A stretch of 64,000 nt of DNA from an uncultured SAR116 cluster alpha proteobacterium (lineage in GTDB: Bacteria; Pseudomonadota; Alphaproteobacteria; Puniceispirillales; GCA-002684695): assembly GCA_902539295.1 (NCBI GenBank), contig CACBIM010000010.1, positions 1 to 64,000 of the forward strand, in the 5' to 3' direction. How positions within the stretch are numbered: the first letter of the stretch is position 1; each line of letters begins with the position of its first letter. A model generated the notes under the pieces. That model searched no databases. It saw only the letters and a program-made list of their open reading frames with translations, and was not told the DNA's origin. The translations under genes were made by a program, and so were the position numbers. Shown one piece after another: positions 30,708 through 43,926 of the stretch.

Positions 30708-30853
30708 TTTTGTTTCCTTAATTTTTTCGAAATCTCTTGAAGTTTATATAAATGATATATTTATTTATAACTAACTATTGCAAAATTTTAATCATTAGTG
30801 AAATGTTATTATAGTCTTATTAATATCAAAACATATCAATGGAGGATGTTCAT

Positions 30854-31915
30854 ATGATTTTTAGCTTTAAAAAATTTTTTTATGCAACAGCATGTTCAAC
30901 TTTATTAGCTGGATCTGCATTTGCTGATGCAGTTACAGTAGTTTCATGGGGTGGATCATACGGTAAAGCTCAGGATGCAGCTTTATTTACAGATGCTTCA
31001 AGAGATTCTGGAATTGCAATAAATAGAGAATCTGGTGCAAGTATGTCTAAAGTTATGCTTCAAGTTGAGTCTGGGGCTGTTATTTGGGATTTAGTTGTAA
31101 CTGGTTCTGGTGGAGCAGCAAATGCTGCTAAAAATGGTGCCCTTGAAAAAATTGATTTCAATGTAGTAGATGTATCAAACTTTTTAGATAATACATATAC
31201 AGATTATTGTATAGGTTCAGATGTGTTCGCAACCGTGGGTGCATGGAATACTGAAAAATATGGTGAACCAGGCACTCCAGGTGCACCTAACTCGTGGGCT
31301 GACTTCTGGGATGTGGAAAAGTATCCTGGCACAAGATCACTAAGATTAAATAATGTTGATGGAGTTTTAGAGCCAGCTGTAATGGCTATGGGAATTCCTC
31401 CTGAAGAAGTATACGATTTTCTTTCATCTGAAGGTGGCATCGATAAAGCAATCGATAAAATTAGAGAATTAAAGCCTCATATTTCAGTTTATTGGAAATC
31501 AGGAGCTATGCAAGCTCAACTTATGAAAGATGAAGAAGTTGATTTCATAACAGGATGGAACGGTCGTTTTGATAATGCAAAAAAGGATGGAGCTAAAGTT
31601 GGATATACTTTTAATCAAGCTTTGAGGGATTATGATTGCTTTGCAATACCGAAAGGAGCACCGAATAAAGATCTTGCAATGAAATTTCTTGGTGAAGTTT
31701 CAAAAGCAAAATACCAAGCCAATCTTCCATTCCATATTACTTATGGGCCAACTAACAAAGAGGCTTATGAGATTACAACTGCTCCAAAAGAGTTAATTGA
31801 GGCGTTACCATCTCACCCAAAAAACTTCTCAAAAATGTTAGCAGTAAGTCTTGACTGGTATGCAAATAACAGGGAAGTAGCTTTAGAAAAGTATATGGAA
31901 TTTCTAAGCGAATAA
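30854..31915 (+). CDS. Spermidine/putrescine-type ABC substrate-binding protein
   Basis: Signal peptide, VTVVSWGGSYGKAQDAALF; start set after ggagg RBS (30841-30845). Confidence 0.88.
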   Translation: MIFSFKKFFYATACSTLLAGSAFADAVTVVSWGGSYGKAQDAALFTDASRDSGIAINRESGASMSKVMLQVESGAVIWDLVVTGSGGAANAAKNGALEKIDFNVVDVSNFLDNTYTDYCIGSDVFATVGAWNTEKYGEPGTPGAPNSWADFWDVEKYPGTRSLRLNNVDGVLEPAVMAMGIPPEEVYDFLSSEGGIDKAIDKIRELKPHISVYWKSGAMQAQLMKDEEVDFITGWNGRFDNAKKDGAKVGYTFNQALRDYDCFAIPKGAPNKDLAMKFLGEVSKAKYQANLPFHITYGPTNKEAYEITTAPKELIEALPSHPKNFSKMLAVSLDWYANNREVALEKYMEFLSE

Positions 31916-31927
31916 TTTTCAAAAACC

Positions 31928-31962
31928 TTTGCTGACGTTATTTAAAAAATAATGTCAGCAAA
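31928..31962 (+). promoter_or_regulatory. Intercistronic hairpin between substrate-binding-protein and ATPase genes
   Basis: tttgctgacgttatt-taaaa-aataatgtcagcaaa: 15-bp stem with one G-U pair, no strong U tract after. Confidence 0.6.
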
Positions 31963-31976
31963 ATACTATAAACAAA

Positions 31977-33059
31977 ATGAAACAAAATATTACCTCTTTA
32001 GAGATATCAATTAAAGATCTTACCAAGAGATATGGTAAGATTTATGCTCTCGATACTGTCAGCCTAGATATTAAAGCAGGTGAATTTTTAACTTTGTTAG
32101 GCCCTTCAGGATCAGGAAAAACGACCTTACTTATGGCAATAGCAGGTTTCAATCGCCCCGACTCAGGGAGTATTAAATTTGCCAATCAAGAAATGATATT
32201 GACGCCACCGCATAAGAGAGAAGTCGGTATGGTCTTTCAAAACTATGCTCTTTTTCCACATATGTCAGTATTTGAAAATATTGGTTTTCCTCTCAAACTT
32301 CGAAAAGCACCAAATGATCAAATCAAAGAAAAAGTTCATGACGCTTTGAAAACTGTCCAACTGTCAGATTACGCAAATAGGAAAATTGATCAACTTTCCG
32401 GTGGCCAGAGACAAAGAGTTGCACTTGCAAGAGCATTTGTATTTGGTCCAAGGATATTGTTAATGGATGAACCGCTCTCCGCATTAGATAAAAAACTAAG
32501 AGAGCAAATGCAAATTGAGTTAAAGCAACTACACAGGAAGTTAGGAGTTACAACTGTTTATGTTACTCATGACCAGAGAGAGGCTTTGACAATGTCTGAT
32601 CGAATTGCTGTAATTAATGAAGGTAAAATTGAACAATTAGGAACACCAAAAGAAATTTACAACTCACCAAATTCCAGTTTTGTAGCTGATTTTATTGGGG
32701 AGTCCTCTTTTCTCCAACTTAATAGAAAAGGTGATGATCTATATTTTTCATCCGAAAAAATTATAACGAATAAAAAATTAAATAAAAATAAAGAGTGGGC
32801 GATGGTTATAAGGCCCGAGAGATTATCAATTGTAAATAAAAGTTACAGGAAAAACTCTTCGAATATTCACTTTTCAGGGGAAATTTCTGAATTGGTTTTT
32901 CAAGGAGAAACAGCCCTAGCATTAGTAAAACTAATGGAGGGAAATTTCTTATCTGTTAGGTTAAGTACTAAATCCAGTGATGATTTTAATAATTTAAAAA
33001 CTGGAAACAAAATACAACTTTGTATGAACCGAAAAGATGTAATTATTATTCCACATTAA
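31977..33059 (+). CDS. potA: PotA-type ABC transporter ATP-binding protein
   Basis: Walker A GPSGSGKTT, LSGGQRQRVALARAF, Walker B ILLMDEPLSALD, TOBE C-terminus. Confidence 0.92.
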   Translation: MKQNITSLEISIKDLTKRYGKIYALDTVSLDIKAGEFLTLLGPSGSGKTTLLMAIAGFNRPDSGSIKFANQEMILTPPHKREVGMVFQNYALFPHMSVFENIGFPLKLRKAPNDQIKEKVHDALKTVQLSDYANRKIDQLSGGQRQRVALARAFVFGPRILLMDEPLSALDKKLREQMQIELKQLHRKLGVTTVYVTHDQREALTMSDRIAVINEGKIEQLGTPKEIYNSPNSSFVADFIGESSFLQLNRKGDDLYFSSEKIITNKKLNKNKEWAMVIRPERLSIVNKSYRKNSSNIHFSGEISELVFQGETALALVKLMEGNFLSVRLSTKSSDDFNNLKTGNKIQLCMNRKDVIIIPH

Positions 33060-33079
33060 TAATTAGAATTAAAAATATA

Positions 33080-33949
33080 ATGAATGAAAAACTTTTGAAA
33101 TCAGCTGAGAGAAAAGAGCAATTGTTGCTAACAGCGCTTACAATCCCGGCATTAATTTCAGTTACACTAATTATTGTAATCCCTGTTGGTTGGCTTTTTT
33201 CATTATCTTTCCTTGGGAAAAGTGGTGATTTTTCTCTTGAAAATTATCAAAAAATGATTGTTTACAAATCATATTTTAGAGTTTTTAAAACAACATTTAA
33301 TGTTAGTTTTTTAACTACGATATTTTGTATTTTACTTGGTTACCCACTTGCTTATTTCTTATCTCAAGTTCCAAAAAAATTAGTTGGTATTTTTATGATA
33401 ACTGTTCTTCTACCTTTTTGGACTTCACTCCTAGTAAGAACTTACGCTTGGCTAGTGTTGCTGCAGAAAAAAGGGATGATAAATAATTTTGCTATTGATA
33501 TGGGAATTTGGGAGACTCCTATTAAGCTTGCGCACAACTTAAATGGAACACTTGTCGGAATGATCCATATAATGCTTCCTTTTATGGTTCTGCCTTTGTA
33601 TGCAGCTATGCAAAGGATTGATAGACAAACAATGCAAGCCGCATCAAATTTAGGCGCTTCACCAATTCAAGCATTTTGGCAAATATTTGTTCCTTTATCT
33701 CTGCCCGGTGTTGCAGCTGGGTCGCTTATAGTTTTTATCCTCTGCTTGGGCTTTTACGTTACTCCAGCAGTTCTGGGCGGTGGTAAAGTTATAATGGTTT
33801 CAATGCAAATTACGGCTATTTTAGAGGATCAATTTAATTGGGGGGCGGCCAGTGCTTTAGGAGTAGTGTTATTAGTAACAACTTTTATATTTTTACTTTT
33901 AGCATCAAGGTTTTTAAAACTCGATAGTATAATGTTTGGGAAACATTAA
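33080..33949 (+). CDS. potB: PotB-type ABC permease
   Basis: QAASNLGASPIQAFWQIFVPLSLPGVAAG EAA loop; start set at MNEKLLKS. Confidence 0.88.
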   Translation: MNEKLLKSAERKEQLLLTALTIPALISVTLIIVIPVGWLFSLSFLGKSGDFSLENYQKMIVYKSYFRVFKTTFNVSFLTTIFCILLGYPLAYFLSQVPKKLVGIFMITVLLPFWTSLLVRTYAWLVLLQKKGMINNFAIDMGIWETPIKLAHNLNGTLVGMIHIMLPFMVLPLYAAMQRIDRQTMQAASNLGASPIQAFWQIFVPLSLPGVAAGSLIVFILCLGFYVTPAVLGGGKVIMVSMQITAILEDQFNWGAASALGVVLLVTTFIFLLLASRFLKLDSIMFGKH

Positions 33950-33950
33950 G

Positions 33951-34763
33951 ATGAATTGGTTGAGTAAACAGGCTTCGGATACGCAAATTACACATGGCCA
34001 GAGAATGTGGCTTTATTTTCTTGCAGCAGTAATAATGTTTTTATTGGTTTTCCCAACTTTAATTGTAATTCCTATGTCATTTTCAGATTCTCAATATTTA
34101 GAATTTCCTCCTGAAAAATGGTCAATTAGATGGTATGAAGAGTACTGGGAAACACCTCGCTGGATTAATGCAACTATAACATCTTTGCAAGTTGCTTTCT
34201 TTACAATGCTCTTAGCCACACCAATAGGCACAATGGCAGCATACGGCCTGTTTGTTTCTGGAAGTAAATTAGGACGGTATGTATTTTTTTTATTAATGAC
34301 GCCAATGATAATTCCAGTAATATTAATAGCTATAGGTACTTTTTATGTTTTTGGAAAAGTAGGAGTTGTGAACTCTATTCCTGGTCTTGTGTTGGCTCAT
34401 ACTGTACTGGCTGTTCCAATTGTTATGATAATTATGACCTCAGCTTTAAGAACGTATGACTTGAACCAGGAGTTGGTAGCAAGAAGTTTGGGGGCATCAA
34501 GAATAAGAGCATTTTTTTCAATAACATTACCGCAAATAAAATTTTCTATAATTATCTCTGCTTTATTTGCATTCCTTACATCATTTGATGAAGTTATAAT
34601 ATCAATTTTCTTGTCTGGAGGTGGCAATTCAACACTTACTAAACAAATGTTCAATGCTTTAAGAGATTACATTGATCCAACAATAGCTGCAATTTCTACC
34701 TTAATGATTATTCTTTCCACTACTTTAATGCTGGGTGCCCAATATTTAGGAAAGCAAGATTAA
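33951..34763 (+). CDS. potC: PotC-type ABC permease
   Basis: VARSLGASRIRAFFSITLPQIKFSI; FDEVIISIFLSG. Confidence 0.88.
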   Translation: MNWLSKQASDTQITHGQRMWLYFLAAVIMFLLVFPTLIVIPMSFSDSQYLEFPPEKWSIRWYEEYWETPRWINATITSLQVAFFTMLLATPIGTMAAYGLFVSGSKLGRYVFFLLMTPMIIPVILIAIGTFYVFGKVGVVNSIPGLVLAHTVLAVPIVMIIMTSALRTYDLNQELVARSLGASRIRAFFSITLPQIKFSIIISALFAFLTSFDEVIISIFLSGGGNSTLTKQMFNALRDYIDPTIAAISTLMIILSTTLMLGAQYLGKQD

Positions 34764-39436: not shown

Positions 39437-40432
39437 CTAAATATTCACGTCTACAATAACTCTGCCTTTAATTTTTCCTTCTAAAATATCTTTCCCAATA
39501 TTAGGTAAATCTGATAATGATATTACTTTTGTTATTGGCTCAAAAAATTTTTTAGGAAAATCTTTATTAAGCCTGTCCCATATCTTCACTCTGTTTTCAA
39601 AAGGCTGCATTGCACTATCAATGCCAAGCATGTTAATACCTCTTAACATAAATGGAATAGCAGATGCTGAAATATTGTTACCTCCAGCATTTCCAACCAC
39701 TGCAACAGAAGCTCCATATTTTAATTGCCCTAACAACCTTGATAATGTATCTCCTCCAACAGTGTCAACACAAGCTCCCCAAGCGGCACTTTCTAAAGGT
39801 CTTTTTATTACTTCATGCAATTCTGATCTATCAACAAGCTTTTTTGCACCAAGAGATAGTAAATAATCTTTTGAAGATTTTTTACCTGTAACTGCAGCAA
39901 CTTCGTAACCTAAATTAGATAGAATAACAACTGCTACTGAACCTACTCCGCCTGTTGCTCCTGTTACCAAAACCTCTCCATTTTCTTTTTTCATTCCTAA
40001 CTCTTCAAGCCTCATAATTGCAAGCATTGCTGAAAAACCAGCAGTACCCATTGACATTGCTTCTTTTGAACTCATCCCTTGAGGCATTTTTACTAGTTGA
40101 CTAGCTTTTACACGTGCTTTTTGAGAATAACCGCCCCAAACAACTTCTCCTACTCTCCACCCCGTTAGAATAACTTTATCACCCTTTTTATAAAGATCAC
40201 TTTGAGAACTTTCTACTTCTCCAGCAAAATCTATTCCTGGCACATGCGGATATGTTTTAACTAATCCAGCACCAGGTCCTATGCAAAGGCCATCTTTATA
40301 ATTTACATTTGAAAATTCAACATTTACCAGAACATCCCCCTCGGGAAGTTGAGATACATCAATTTTTTTTACTTGAGATGATGTGATATTTTTTTCTTCA
40401 TCCTTATCTACAACAAGTGCATTAAATTCCAT
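39437..40432 (-). CDS. AcuI/YhdH-family acrylyl-CoA reductase / quinone oxidoreductase
   Basis: NYKDGLCIGPGAGLVKTYPHVPGIDFAGEV...VTGATGGVGSVAVVILSNLGYEVAAVTGK. Confidence 0.88.
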   Translation of the reverse strand: MEFNALVVDKDEEKNITSSQVKKIDVSQLPEGDVLVNVEFSNVNYKDGLCIGPGAGLVKTYPHVPGIDFAGEVESSQSDLYKKGDKVILTGWRVGEVVWGGYSQKARVKASQLVKMPQGMSSKEAMSMGTAGFSAMLAIMRLEELGMKKENGEVLVTGATGGVGSVAVVILSNLGYEVAAVTGKKSSKDYLLSLGAKKLVDRSELHEVIKRPLESAAWGACVDTVGGDTLSRLLGQLKYGASVAVVGNAGGNNISASAIPFMLRGINMLGIDSAMQPFENRVKIWDRLNKDFPKKFFEPITKVISLSDLPNIGKDILEGKIKGRVIVDVNI

Positions 40433-40573: not shown

Positions 40574-41812
40574 ATGTCATTGTCAGTTTTAATTATTGGT
40601 GCAGGGATTTCTGGCATATCTGCTGCAGAATTCTTGAGACGTGAAGGAGTATCAGTTACTCTTGTAGACAGGGTTAATCCTGGAGACCCTAAACAAACCT
40701 CTTATGGAAATGCTGGCTTACTTGCTAGTTCAGCTATTGTGCCTATCTCATCACCAGGAATATGGAAAAAACTACCTTTTTATTTATTTGGAAAAAATTC
40801 ACCACTTTCTATTAATTGGCTTTACCTTCCAAAACTTTTACCATGGCTTATTCCTTTCCTGAAAAATACAAGAAAGGAAAAGTTTTTATCAGTTATAGAT
40901 GCGCTTCAGTCTCTAACATATGACAGCATTGAACAACATTTAGCCCTTTCAAAAGGTACAAAGGCTTCGAAATATATTAAACTAGGAACGTGGACTTTAC
41001 TTTATAAAGACAAAAATGAATTTCTCTCTGACAGTTATGAAAATAATCTTAGAAAGAAATATGGTTTTGATTTTACTGAATTGAAACAAAATGAACTCAT
41101 TGAAAAGGATCCTTTTTTGGGATCATACTATAACTTTGGAGCTGAATTTAAAAATCACGGCTGGCTTACTTCACCTTCTCTTTACATAAAAGAACTCGCC
41201 AATCATTTCAAAAATAATGGTGGAAAAATTTTAAATAAGAAAGTTAAGGAAATTAATAAAAATACAGTAATAACTGAAGAAAATGAAATTTTAGAAGCAG
41301 ACAAGATTGTTATTTGCGCAGGGGCTTGGTCAGGCAAATTATTAAAAAGTATGAAACTTAAAACAAATCTTGAAACAGAAAGAGGGTATCATTTATTTCT
41401 TAAAGATGTGAATTATATGCCTCAAAATCCCTACGCTGTTTCAGATTTAAAGTTTGCAATAACTCCTATGAAAAATGGCTTGAGATGCGCAGGAACAACT
41501 GAACTTGGAGGCTTAAATGCTAAACCAAGTTTTAGTAGAGTTAATATACTGCGTGAAGGGATAAAAAAAGTTTACCCTAAACTAGAATGGAAGGACGAAG
41601 AGGTTTGGATGGGTCACAGACCGACCACACCAGATTGTATGCCTATTTTGGGTAAATCAGAAACTTCAAACGACATTTTCTTTGCTTTTGGAGGCCAACA
41701 TATAGGCCTTACAATAGGCCCCAAAATGGGAAGAATTATAACTAATTTAATTCTAGACAAAAAACAAAATATTCCCTTGGCTCAATTTAGAAATGATAGA
41801 TTTTATAAATAA
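40574..41812 (+). CDS. FAD-dependent D-amino acid dehydrogenase-like (DadA family)
   Basis: VLIIGAGISGISAAEFLRREGVSVTLVDRVNPGDPKQTSYGNAG...WMGHRPTTPDCMPILG. Confidence 0.87.
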   Translation: MSLSVLIIGAGISGISAAEFLRREGVSVTLVDRVNPGDPKQTSYGNAGLLASSAIVPISSPGIWKKLPFYLFGKNSPLSINWLYLPKLLPWLIPFLKNTRKEKFLSVIDALQSLTYDSIEQHLALSKGTKASKYIKLGTWTLLYKDKNEFLSDSYENNLRKKYGFDFTELKQNELIEKDPFLGSYYNFGAEFKNHGWLTSPSLYIKELANHFKNNGGKILNKKVKEINKNTVITEENEILEADKIVICAGAWSGKLLKSMKLKTNLETERGYHLFLKDVNYMPQNPYAVSDLKFAITPMKNGLRCAGTTELGGLNAKPSFSRVNILREGIKKVYPKLEWKDEEVWMGHRPTTPDCMPILGKSETSNDIFFAFGGQHIGLTIGPKMGRIITNLILDKKQNIPLAQFRNDRFYK

Positions 41813-41831: not shown

Positions 41832-43139
41832 TTAGTTAATATATTTATTTATCTCTCTACTATCTCTAAATTTGTATAATTCCACAACAGCTGGTAGAAA
41901 CCATGGTCTACCATAATAAAGCGGTCTAGTTGGGAATTTTAGGCTGTCAAATGCAGTATGGCCTTCCTTGTCCTTAATTACCTTTTTGCCAAGTTTCATA
42001 CCTAAGTAGCTAGATAAGGCAATGCCTGAACCACAATATCCCATAGAATAAAATACTCCATCGATCTGACCTGTATGAGGAAGATGATCAAATGTGTATG
42101 AAACGTATCCCATCCAAGAATGAGATACATTTATTTCAGGCAAATCAGGAAATACTCTTTTTAAATCTTTAAGTAGTAGTGGTGCACTATCATGTAAATC
42201 AATTTCTCTTGAAGAAACTCTTCCTCCGAAAATAATTCTTTTTTTGTCTGGACTAGCTCTAAAATAATACACTACTCTGCAGGAATCAGTGATGTGCCTA
42301 TTTGATGGAAAAAGTTGTGATATAAAACTTTTTGGTAATTCTTGGGATGCAATAACATAGCTTCCAATTGGAATGCTTCTTCTATTCAGCCAAGGTGTAA
42401 CTTTTGACGTATAACCATTTGTAGCGATAATTAAATTTTCTGTATTTGTTACCCCTTTGTTAGTTTCAACATTAAAAATATCACTATTTTTTTTGTAACT
42501 CAGCAACTCACAATTTTGTATAATTACTATCCCTAAACTTTTTGCTTTTTGAATAAGTGACTTATGATACTTTGCAGGATTTAGAGATGAATGATCAGGA
42601 AAGACAATTCCCCCGTGATATAAATTTGAATTTATTTCATTTTTTTGTTCTGATTTTGGGACAATATATGTTTCAATACCCTCAATATCTTTTAATTTTT
42701 TACTTTCTTCTACAAATTTGTTAAATTCTGTAGGAGTATGTGCTCCGTGAAAGAGACCATCTCTTATAAAATCGCAATTAATATTTTCTTTATTTATAAA
42801 TTCAATTATCCAATTAAGTGCGTTAACACCCTCGGCTCTTATAGACTTTGCTTTTTCAAATCCATACTTTTTAGTTAGCTTTTCAATAGATGGCTTTAGT
42901 AAATTACTAATTTGACCCCCATTTTTTGACGAACAACCATCACCAAAATTACATTTATCAATGACACATACTTTCATTCCATTTTTTGCCATTTCAAAAG
43001 CTGCATGCAATCCAGTGTATCCAAAACCTACAACTAAAGCGTCAGATTTTTCAGGTAAGTTAGCATCTTTTAAAAAGTCTTGGTCTACTGTATCGAGCCA
43101 ATAAGAATATTTTTTCATTTTTTTCTCAATTTTATCCAT
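41832..43139 (-). CDS. FAD-dependent oxidoreductase, PuuB/OrdL (gamma-glutamylputrescine oxidase)-like
   Basis: ALVVGFGYTGLHAAFEMAKNGMKVCVIDKCNFGDGCSSKNGGQ...GYCGSGIALSSYLG. Confidence 0.85.
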   Translation of the reverse strand: MDKIEKKMKKYSYWLDTVDQDFLKDANLPEKSDALVVGFGYTGLHAAFEMAKNGMKVCVIDKCNFGDGCSSKNGGQISNLLKPSIEKLTKKYGFEKAKSIRAEGVNALNWIIEFINKENINCDFIRDGLFHGAHTPTEFNKFVEESKKLKDIEGIETYIVPKSEQKNEINSNLYHGGIVFPDHSSLNPAKYHKSLIQKAKSLGIVIIQNCELLSYKKNSDIFNVETNKGVTNTENLIIATNGYTSKVTPWLNRRSIPIGSYVIASQELPKSFISQLFPSNRHITDSCRVVYYFRASPDKKRIIFGGRVSSREIDLHDSAPLLLKDLKRVFPDLPEINVSHSWMGYVSYTFDHLPHTGQIDGVFYSMGYCGSGIALSSYLGMKLGKKVIKDKEGHTAFDSLKFPTRPLYYGRPWFLPAVVELYKFRDSREINKYIN

Positions 43140-43926
43140 CTGTTCTGCCGTAAAAAGTCATTTGCGCAGATTTTGATAGTGATACACCAGGTTTGTCATT
43201 ATATGCTAGAACAGCTAATATTCGTATCTCATCACAGTCAACCTTTGTAACGCGATGCATAGAGTTTTTACCATTAAATAAAAGCAATCCACCTGACTTC
43301 ATAGAAATTTTTTTTATTTCAGTTTTTCCATATAAAACATTACTGACATTTTCAAACTCTTTTGCTTGATTGATTAATGACCCCCTTAGAGGTTCTGTAT
43401 ATTCAAATTCTCCACCCCTTGAAACTTCATTAATCATTAACGTGATAGCAAATGAGGAATTATCAAAATGCCATCCTAGTTCCTCCCCTCTTCTAGCGTA
43501 GTGAATGTTAATCGATGACAATTTATCTTTGTATGGGTGTATGCTTTCTTGTTTTGTAACAAACGAAATAAAATCTATGAATTTACATGAATTATAAATA
43601 ATTTTGAGAGGAGACAGTGAGTTTATCAAGTCATCGGTTATACAGCCTTTTGATGATTTTACTTTTTTATTTCTTGGGTGTTCTGAAGGATACATTATAT
43701 CCTCTGACTTAAGATAGACATTATGCTCTTGAGGATTAAAGTAAGCATGATTTAATTTTGATAAACTCTCTTTTTTTATATTATCCATACTTTCCGGCAA
43801 GACAAAATTTTCAAGAGACACTATACCAGTTTCATCAAACTGATTTTGAATTTTTTTTAACCAATTAGCTTCATTTATTGGATAGTCTTTAAAATTTATA
43901 ATATTTTTCAAGTTATCTTCATTCAT
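43132..43926 (-). CDS. 2-oxoglutarate/Fe(II)-dependent oxygenase, BesD/HalD-like fold with HxD
   Basis: IHYARRGEELGWHFDNSSFAITLMI...GGLLLFNGKNSMHRVTKVDCDEIRILAVLAY: HxD, distal H and Arg. Confidence 0.78.
   Translation of the reverse strand: MNEDNLKNIINFKDYPINEANWLKKIQNQFDETGIVSLENFVLPESMDNIKKESLSKLNHAYFNPQEHNVYLKSEDIMYPSEHPRNKKVKSSKGCITDDLINSLSPLKIIYNSCKFIDFISFVTKQESIHPYKDKLSSINIHYARRGEELGWHFDNSSFAITLMINEVSRGGEFEYTEPLRGSLINQAKEFENVSNVLYGKTEIKKISMKSGGLLLFNGKNSMHRVTKVDCDEIRILAVLAYNDKPGVSLSKSAQMTFYGRTDG

Follow-up and report, generated by a model that had tools for sequence, protein, structure and literature searches.

Why does a gene for an Fe(II)/2OG oxygenase lie directly beside one for an FAD-dependent oxidase in an uncultured SAR116 alphaproteobacterium, and do the two enzymes serve one pathway? 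The 64,000-nucleotide stretch of DNA analysed here (the window) carries both genes on the minus strand, the 264-residue oxygenase at 43132-43926 and the annotated oxidase ORF of 435 codons at 41832-43139, and the translated oxygenase contains the segments GWHFDNSSFA, MHRVTKV and EIRIL, as reported in a preliminary description made from the sequence alone. That description regarded the pair as a dedicated amine or amino-acid oxidation module, translationally coupled through an 8-nt overlap. The overlap hinges on the start chosen for the oxidase: the oxygenase gene ends in GGC AGA ACA GAT GGA TAA, and the annotated oxidase ORF begins within this end. In the related genomes (L003 and L004), the FAD protein starts with ATG-AAA-(GAA/AAC)-TA(T/C)-TC, matching Met8 of the window ORF, and the intergenic gaps are 20 nt and 9 nt, respectively. 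Because the FAD proteins of relatives begin at the equivalent of residue 8, the overlap is probably an artefact of start-codon choice; with Met8 as the start (ATG at 43118), the oxidase would span 41832-43118 on the minus strand and leave a gap of 13 nt. Coupling by overlap is thus no longer indicated, while the co-directional, operon-like spacing holds, and the two genes probably form an operon. Each protein matches its family strongly, which argues against a chance pair of ORFs.

The oxygenase matches the Pfam HalD family (PF23169) with 55.1 bits against a gathering cut-off of 26, and a search of NCBIfam returned no match and hence no family name. Assignment to the BesD/HalD group, already proposed from motifs, was confirmed by profile and structure comparisons: a profile built from 37 relatives retrieved HalB, HalA, Hydrox, BesD and HalD as its best PDB chains, and with an AlphaFold2 model of high confidence (pLDDT 95.2, pTM 0.90) the best 41 PDB matches in Foldseek were all BesD, HalA, HalB, HalD or Hydrox structures, at TM scores of about 0.6-0.7. 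The facial triad (H153, D155 and H224) and the downstream R235, presumed to be the 2OG-binding arginine, are intact, and these four residues together with N156 are kept in 60 of 60 listed relatives of at least 39% identity. In the HalD/BesD halogenases, Gly or Ala replaces the facial-triad Asp (PMC13244439); the window protein instead reads H153-F154-D155 (codons at 43462-43470, minus strand). As the HxD carboxylate is present and the distal His and the Arg are intact, hydroxylation rather than halogenation is predicted, and the alignment of 60 relatives bears out this earlier expectation of a hydroxylase. The protein resembles the lysine hydroxylase Hydrox (PDB 7jsd, 9oet) in its fold (TM about 0.65-0.69), HxD motif, distal His and Arg, but is only about 16% identical to it and has replacements at the aligned lysine-contact residues. 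It also departs from the wider HalD/BesD family in that many members of its clade stand alone, outside biosynthetic clusters.

The FAD oxidase belongs to the DAO family (PF01266, 173.7 bits) and falls in a clade of 38 sequences, 35 of them orthologs, that has a support of 98/100 and stands apart from SAR116 paralogs and from PuuB. The PuuB/OrdL-like label of the preliminary description survives at the level of the family only: E. coli PuuB, a gamma-glutamylputrescine oxidase, is likewise a DAO-family FAD oxidase and is 28% identical over 404 residues, but it is not the closest relative. In Ruegeria pomeroyi, one cluster holds two FAD genes, SPO_RS21760, which is the ortholog of the window oxidase (30% to PuuB), and SPO_RS21785, whose product is nearer to PuuB (35%), and no PuuA-, PuuC- or PuuD-type genes were seen among the ORFs listed around the oxidase in the window, so that neither homology nor context places it with PuuB.

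Orthologs of the oxidase occur in 13 other SAR116 genomes, and in each of them the gene adjoins a PotABCD-like ABC importer (SBP-ATPase-TM1-TM2). Of 15 other Alphaproteobacteria that were sampled, 6 have such an importer within a few kb of the ortholog; the linkage recurs in R. pomeroyi and on Roseovarius plasmids. The same importer, absent from the preliminary description, is encoded on the plus strand of the window at 30839-34763, about 7 kb from the oxidase. It resembles the oxidase-adjacent importers of five SAR116 genomes (G072, G073, G082, G087 and G091), with identities of 85% for the SBP (30839-31915), 63-64% for the ATPase (31977-33059) and 74-80% for the permeases (33020-33949 and 33936-34763). 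By orthology and linkage, the window oxidase thus belongs to the group associated with polyamine-type importers. A sister genome that has the pair and is 86% complete (G001) yielded no ortholog of the window's SBP.

The R. pomeroyi megaplasmid ortholog, SPO_RS21760, is 48% identical to the window oxidase and has the importer alongside, with an SBP 60% identical to that of the window; this locus differs in having the importer immediately adjacent and no HalD-fold oxygenase next to it. From a gene count that starts at the TRAP binding protein SPOA0374, we infer that SPO_RS21760 is SPOA0380 and that its neighbouring importer is SPOA0381-0384. In one source, which cites Mou et al. 2010, SPOA0381-0384 is entered as a system for spermidine influx (PMC9038784), and in another as a spermidine/putrescine system (PMC9870897), entries that convey the spermidine assignment second-hand from expression and annotation literature.

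The reading that we favour, with a probability of about 0.5, combines a polyamine-type amine oxidase and a widespread orphan HalD-fold hydroxylase, with separate histories, that became joined in one lineage. The FAD protein would be an amine oxidase of the DAO family, from the group whose genes adjoin a spermidine-type importer in many Alphaproteobacteria. Its most likely reaction would be oxidation of a C-N bond, either in an imported polyamine or in an N-substituted compound derived from one, yielding an aldehyde or oxo acid. The oxygenase would represent a branch of the HalD/BesD fold that has HxD, is widespread and otherwise stands alone; with Fe(II), 2OG and O2, it would hydroxylate a small free substrate bound differently from lysine in BesD. 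In a single SAR116 genus (g1), it appears to have become co-transcribed with the oxidase and to have altered second-sphere residues beside the distal His, changes that suggest adaptation to a function within the amine pathway of the oxidase or alongside it. A common substrate for the two enzymes is plausible, and a two-step pathway is best treated as a lead rather than an established system.

The restricted distribution of the pairing weighs against the dedicated module originally proposed. A scan of genome contigs recovered 45 relatives of the oxygenase, with a close FAD partner at L003 and L004 only, and adjacency is confined to three genomes of g1; outside this genus the genes are not conserved as neighbours, the outcome named in advance by the preliminary description as telling against its module. 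Across the order, the oxygenase is present in 37 genomes, the FAD ortholog in 16 and both in 8 (sets defined at E values of 1e-40/1e-120). This co-occurrence reaches a Fisher p of 0.034 with the window genus included and is not significant without it (p = 0.22), nor is it significant in the class outside the genus (p = 0.13; 1e-50/1e-95). Genomes outside the genus that possess both genes have them far apart, 220 kb in one case, or on separate contigs. The clade of the oxygenase extends through marine Alphaproteobacteria, Gammaproteobacteria, Acidimicrobiales and Pantoea megaplasmids, and its orthologs elsewhere stand alone in regions with rhomboid, RadC and adenylosuccinate-lyase genes, or near LysR, panB-panC, GGT, S-methyltransferase or PhyH genes. 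Gamma-glutamyltranspeptidase genes recur near the oxygenase at five loci (L132, L133, L134, L023 and L025) from SAR116 and the gammaproteobacterial Woeseiaceae.

It is accordingly quite possible that the two genes are chance neighbours, the oxygenase being an independent metabolic enzyme whose gene came to lie next to that of the oxidase in an ancestor of the genus, with no pathway in common. The varied contexts of the oxygenase orthologs and the non-significant co-occurrence outside the genus favour this explanation, as does synteny: the entire RecJ-TrpD block is syntenic in g1, with the pair and the DadA-like gene in place in three of its genomes, and adjacency could be neutral because the pairing occurs in one genus only and within such a block. 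Against it, the operon-like spacing has persisted although the proteins have drifted apart, to 62-72% identity among the g1 genomes, and the g1 oxygenases have changed at positions that are otherwise conserved. One further genome (G004), considered as an empty-site comparison, was set aside; its contig stops just past the importer, which makes the absence of the pair uninformative.

The changes in the g1 oxygenases are found in the segment N218-K228 (43243-43275, minus strand) around the distal iron ligand H224. The oxygenases of the three g1 genomes with the pair show R218N, R220K and P228K, the first and last replacing an Arg and a Pro that are present in 29 of 29 other members of the main clade and at the equivalent positions of BesD, HalB, HalA and Hydrox in profile alignments, so that the g1 proteins lack Arg218 and Pro228 in addition to their other differences from the HalD/BesD family. 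Among listed relatives of at least 39% identity, the combination N-K-K at 218, 220 and 228 is restricted to the three g1 proteins, and the stem branch of the g1 oxygenases is long (1.39). The proteins of these genomes (G000, G001 and G003) have a skewed composition, so that AT bias may account for some of the changes peculiar to g1, but both R218 and P228 are retained in genomes that lie outside the genus and have 32-35% GC (L020 and L023-L025). The substitutions could reflect an enzyme that adapted to a different role. A more specific proposal, which seems unlikely, is that a HalD-fold enzyme whose second coordination sphere was remodelled has been recruited for the oxidation of polyamines or their products; it would hydroxylate either a substrate or an intermediate in a pathway for imported polyamines, before or after the FAD oxidase acts. 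We know of no earlier description of an oxygenase-assisted polyamine route.

The substrate pocket bears on the proposal that the oxygenase hydroxylates free lysine, ornithine or putrescine and that the FAD oxidase then deaminates the product. This scheme draws on the PDB descriptions of HalD, BesD and Hydrox enzymes as acting on free lysine or ornithine, on the HxD motif and on the membership of the oxidase in the amine/amino-acid oxidase family. In BesD, lysine is held through its amines by D239, D143 and E123 and through its carboxylate by R77, H137 and W241 (PMC13244439). HalB, HalA, BesD and Hydrox share the motif THGWHW[G/D]D, whereas the window clade has EELGWHFDN, and BesD H137 and D143 (numbering of PMC13244439) correspond to L150 and N156, each of them shared by 31 or more of the 32 members of the main clade. 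BesD R77 aligns with Ser91, with a conserved Lys93 two residues further on; the equivalent of E123 is ambiguous, and D239 and W241 lie outside the aligned region. Those lysine contacts of BesD- and Hydrox-type enzymes for which the alignment gives a counterpart are thus replaced, and free lysine or ornithine is consequently an unlikely substrate, at least with lysine-like binding. Since, in addition, the pair is not conserved outside the genus, we regard the lysine, ornithine or putrescine module as improbable. The literature on the hydroxylase branch of BesD/HalD yielded just the BesD and Hydrox mechanism papers and halogenase reviews, and a reading based on homarine was dropped for want of a usable lead in the literature.

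Least probable is a supply of a vitamin or its precursor by the oxygenase, such as beta-alanine for pantothenate in lineages without the aspartate decarboxylase PanD: although the oxygenase gene follows panB-panC directly, with at most a few nt between, in two genomes (G072, L132; G077, L134) and comes shortly downstream of panC in two others (G073, C9; G074, C43), and PanD is absent from 136 of 136 genomes of the order and from 28 of 28 other genomes with an oxygenase ortholog, no PanC match was found in five of five g1 genomes, three of which keep the oxygenase, and many genomes of family f2 have PanC but not the oxygenase, which led us to reject it as a general role. With neither PanD nor PanC matched, g1 is itself predicted to be auxotrophic for pantothenate.

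The third enzyme at the locus, a DadA-like FAD dehydrogenase (40574-41812, plus strand; PF01266, 169 bits), does converge on the pair across a 19-nt gap, as first described, but is not bound to it: orthologs of 47-57% identity occur in family f2, and none of the DadA-like loci examined (four from f2, one from f4) has the pair, AcuI or TrhO as neighbours. Adjoining the DadA-like gene and kept in place in the genus is a quinone-oxidoreductase-type gene (39437-40432), whose product we take to be AcuI/YhdH-like (acrylyl-CoA reductase).

As solved structures with the HalD/BesD fold, our searches named lysine or ornithine halogenases and one lysine hydroxylase. The fold is prized for C-H functionalisation, and the substrate of the window clade, with its different pocket, would bring new chemistry to it. 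For the FAD oxidase, the tie to a spermidine-type importer offers a testable assignment for a common, unnamed marine polyamine-related gene.

In SAR116, the FAD oxidase cluster is often accompanied by LysR, a DMSP-lyase-family cupin, a GMC oxidoreductase, a mandelate-racemase-family enzyme, or an acyl-CoA ligase and an enoyl-CoA hydratase. The mandelate-racemase and GMC enzymes were rejected as partners, the mandelate-racemase homolog of the window genus being encoded at an unrelated locus. The cupin and LysR adjoin the oxidase and importer in five SAR116 genomes (L112, L116, L117, L119 and L120); we know of no functional link between this cupin and the oxidase or importer, and a connection to DMSP, considered in view of the cupin and of the AcuI-like gene in the window, was rejected, given that spermidine is the reported substrate of the importer and that roseobacters have a different published system for DMSP import. 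The genome from which the window comes also encodes a second, distant HalD-family oxygenase of about 30% identity (G000, C39, 3793-4563; L135, 3772-4617), with genes for a molybdopterin oxidoreductase subunit and a sulfatase nearby.
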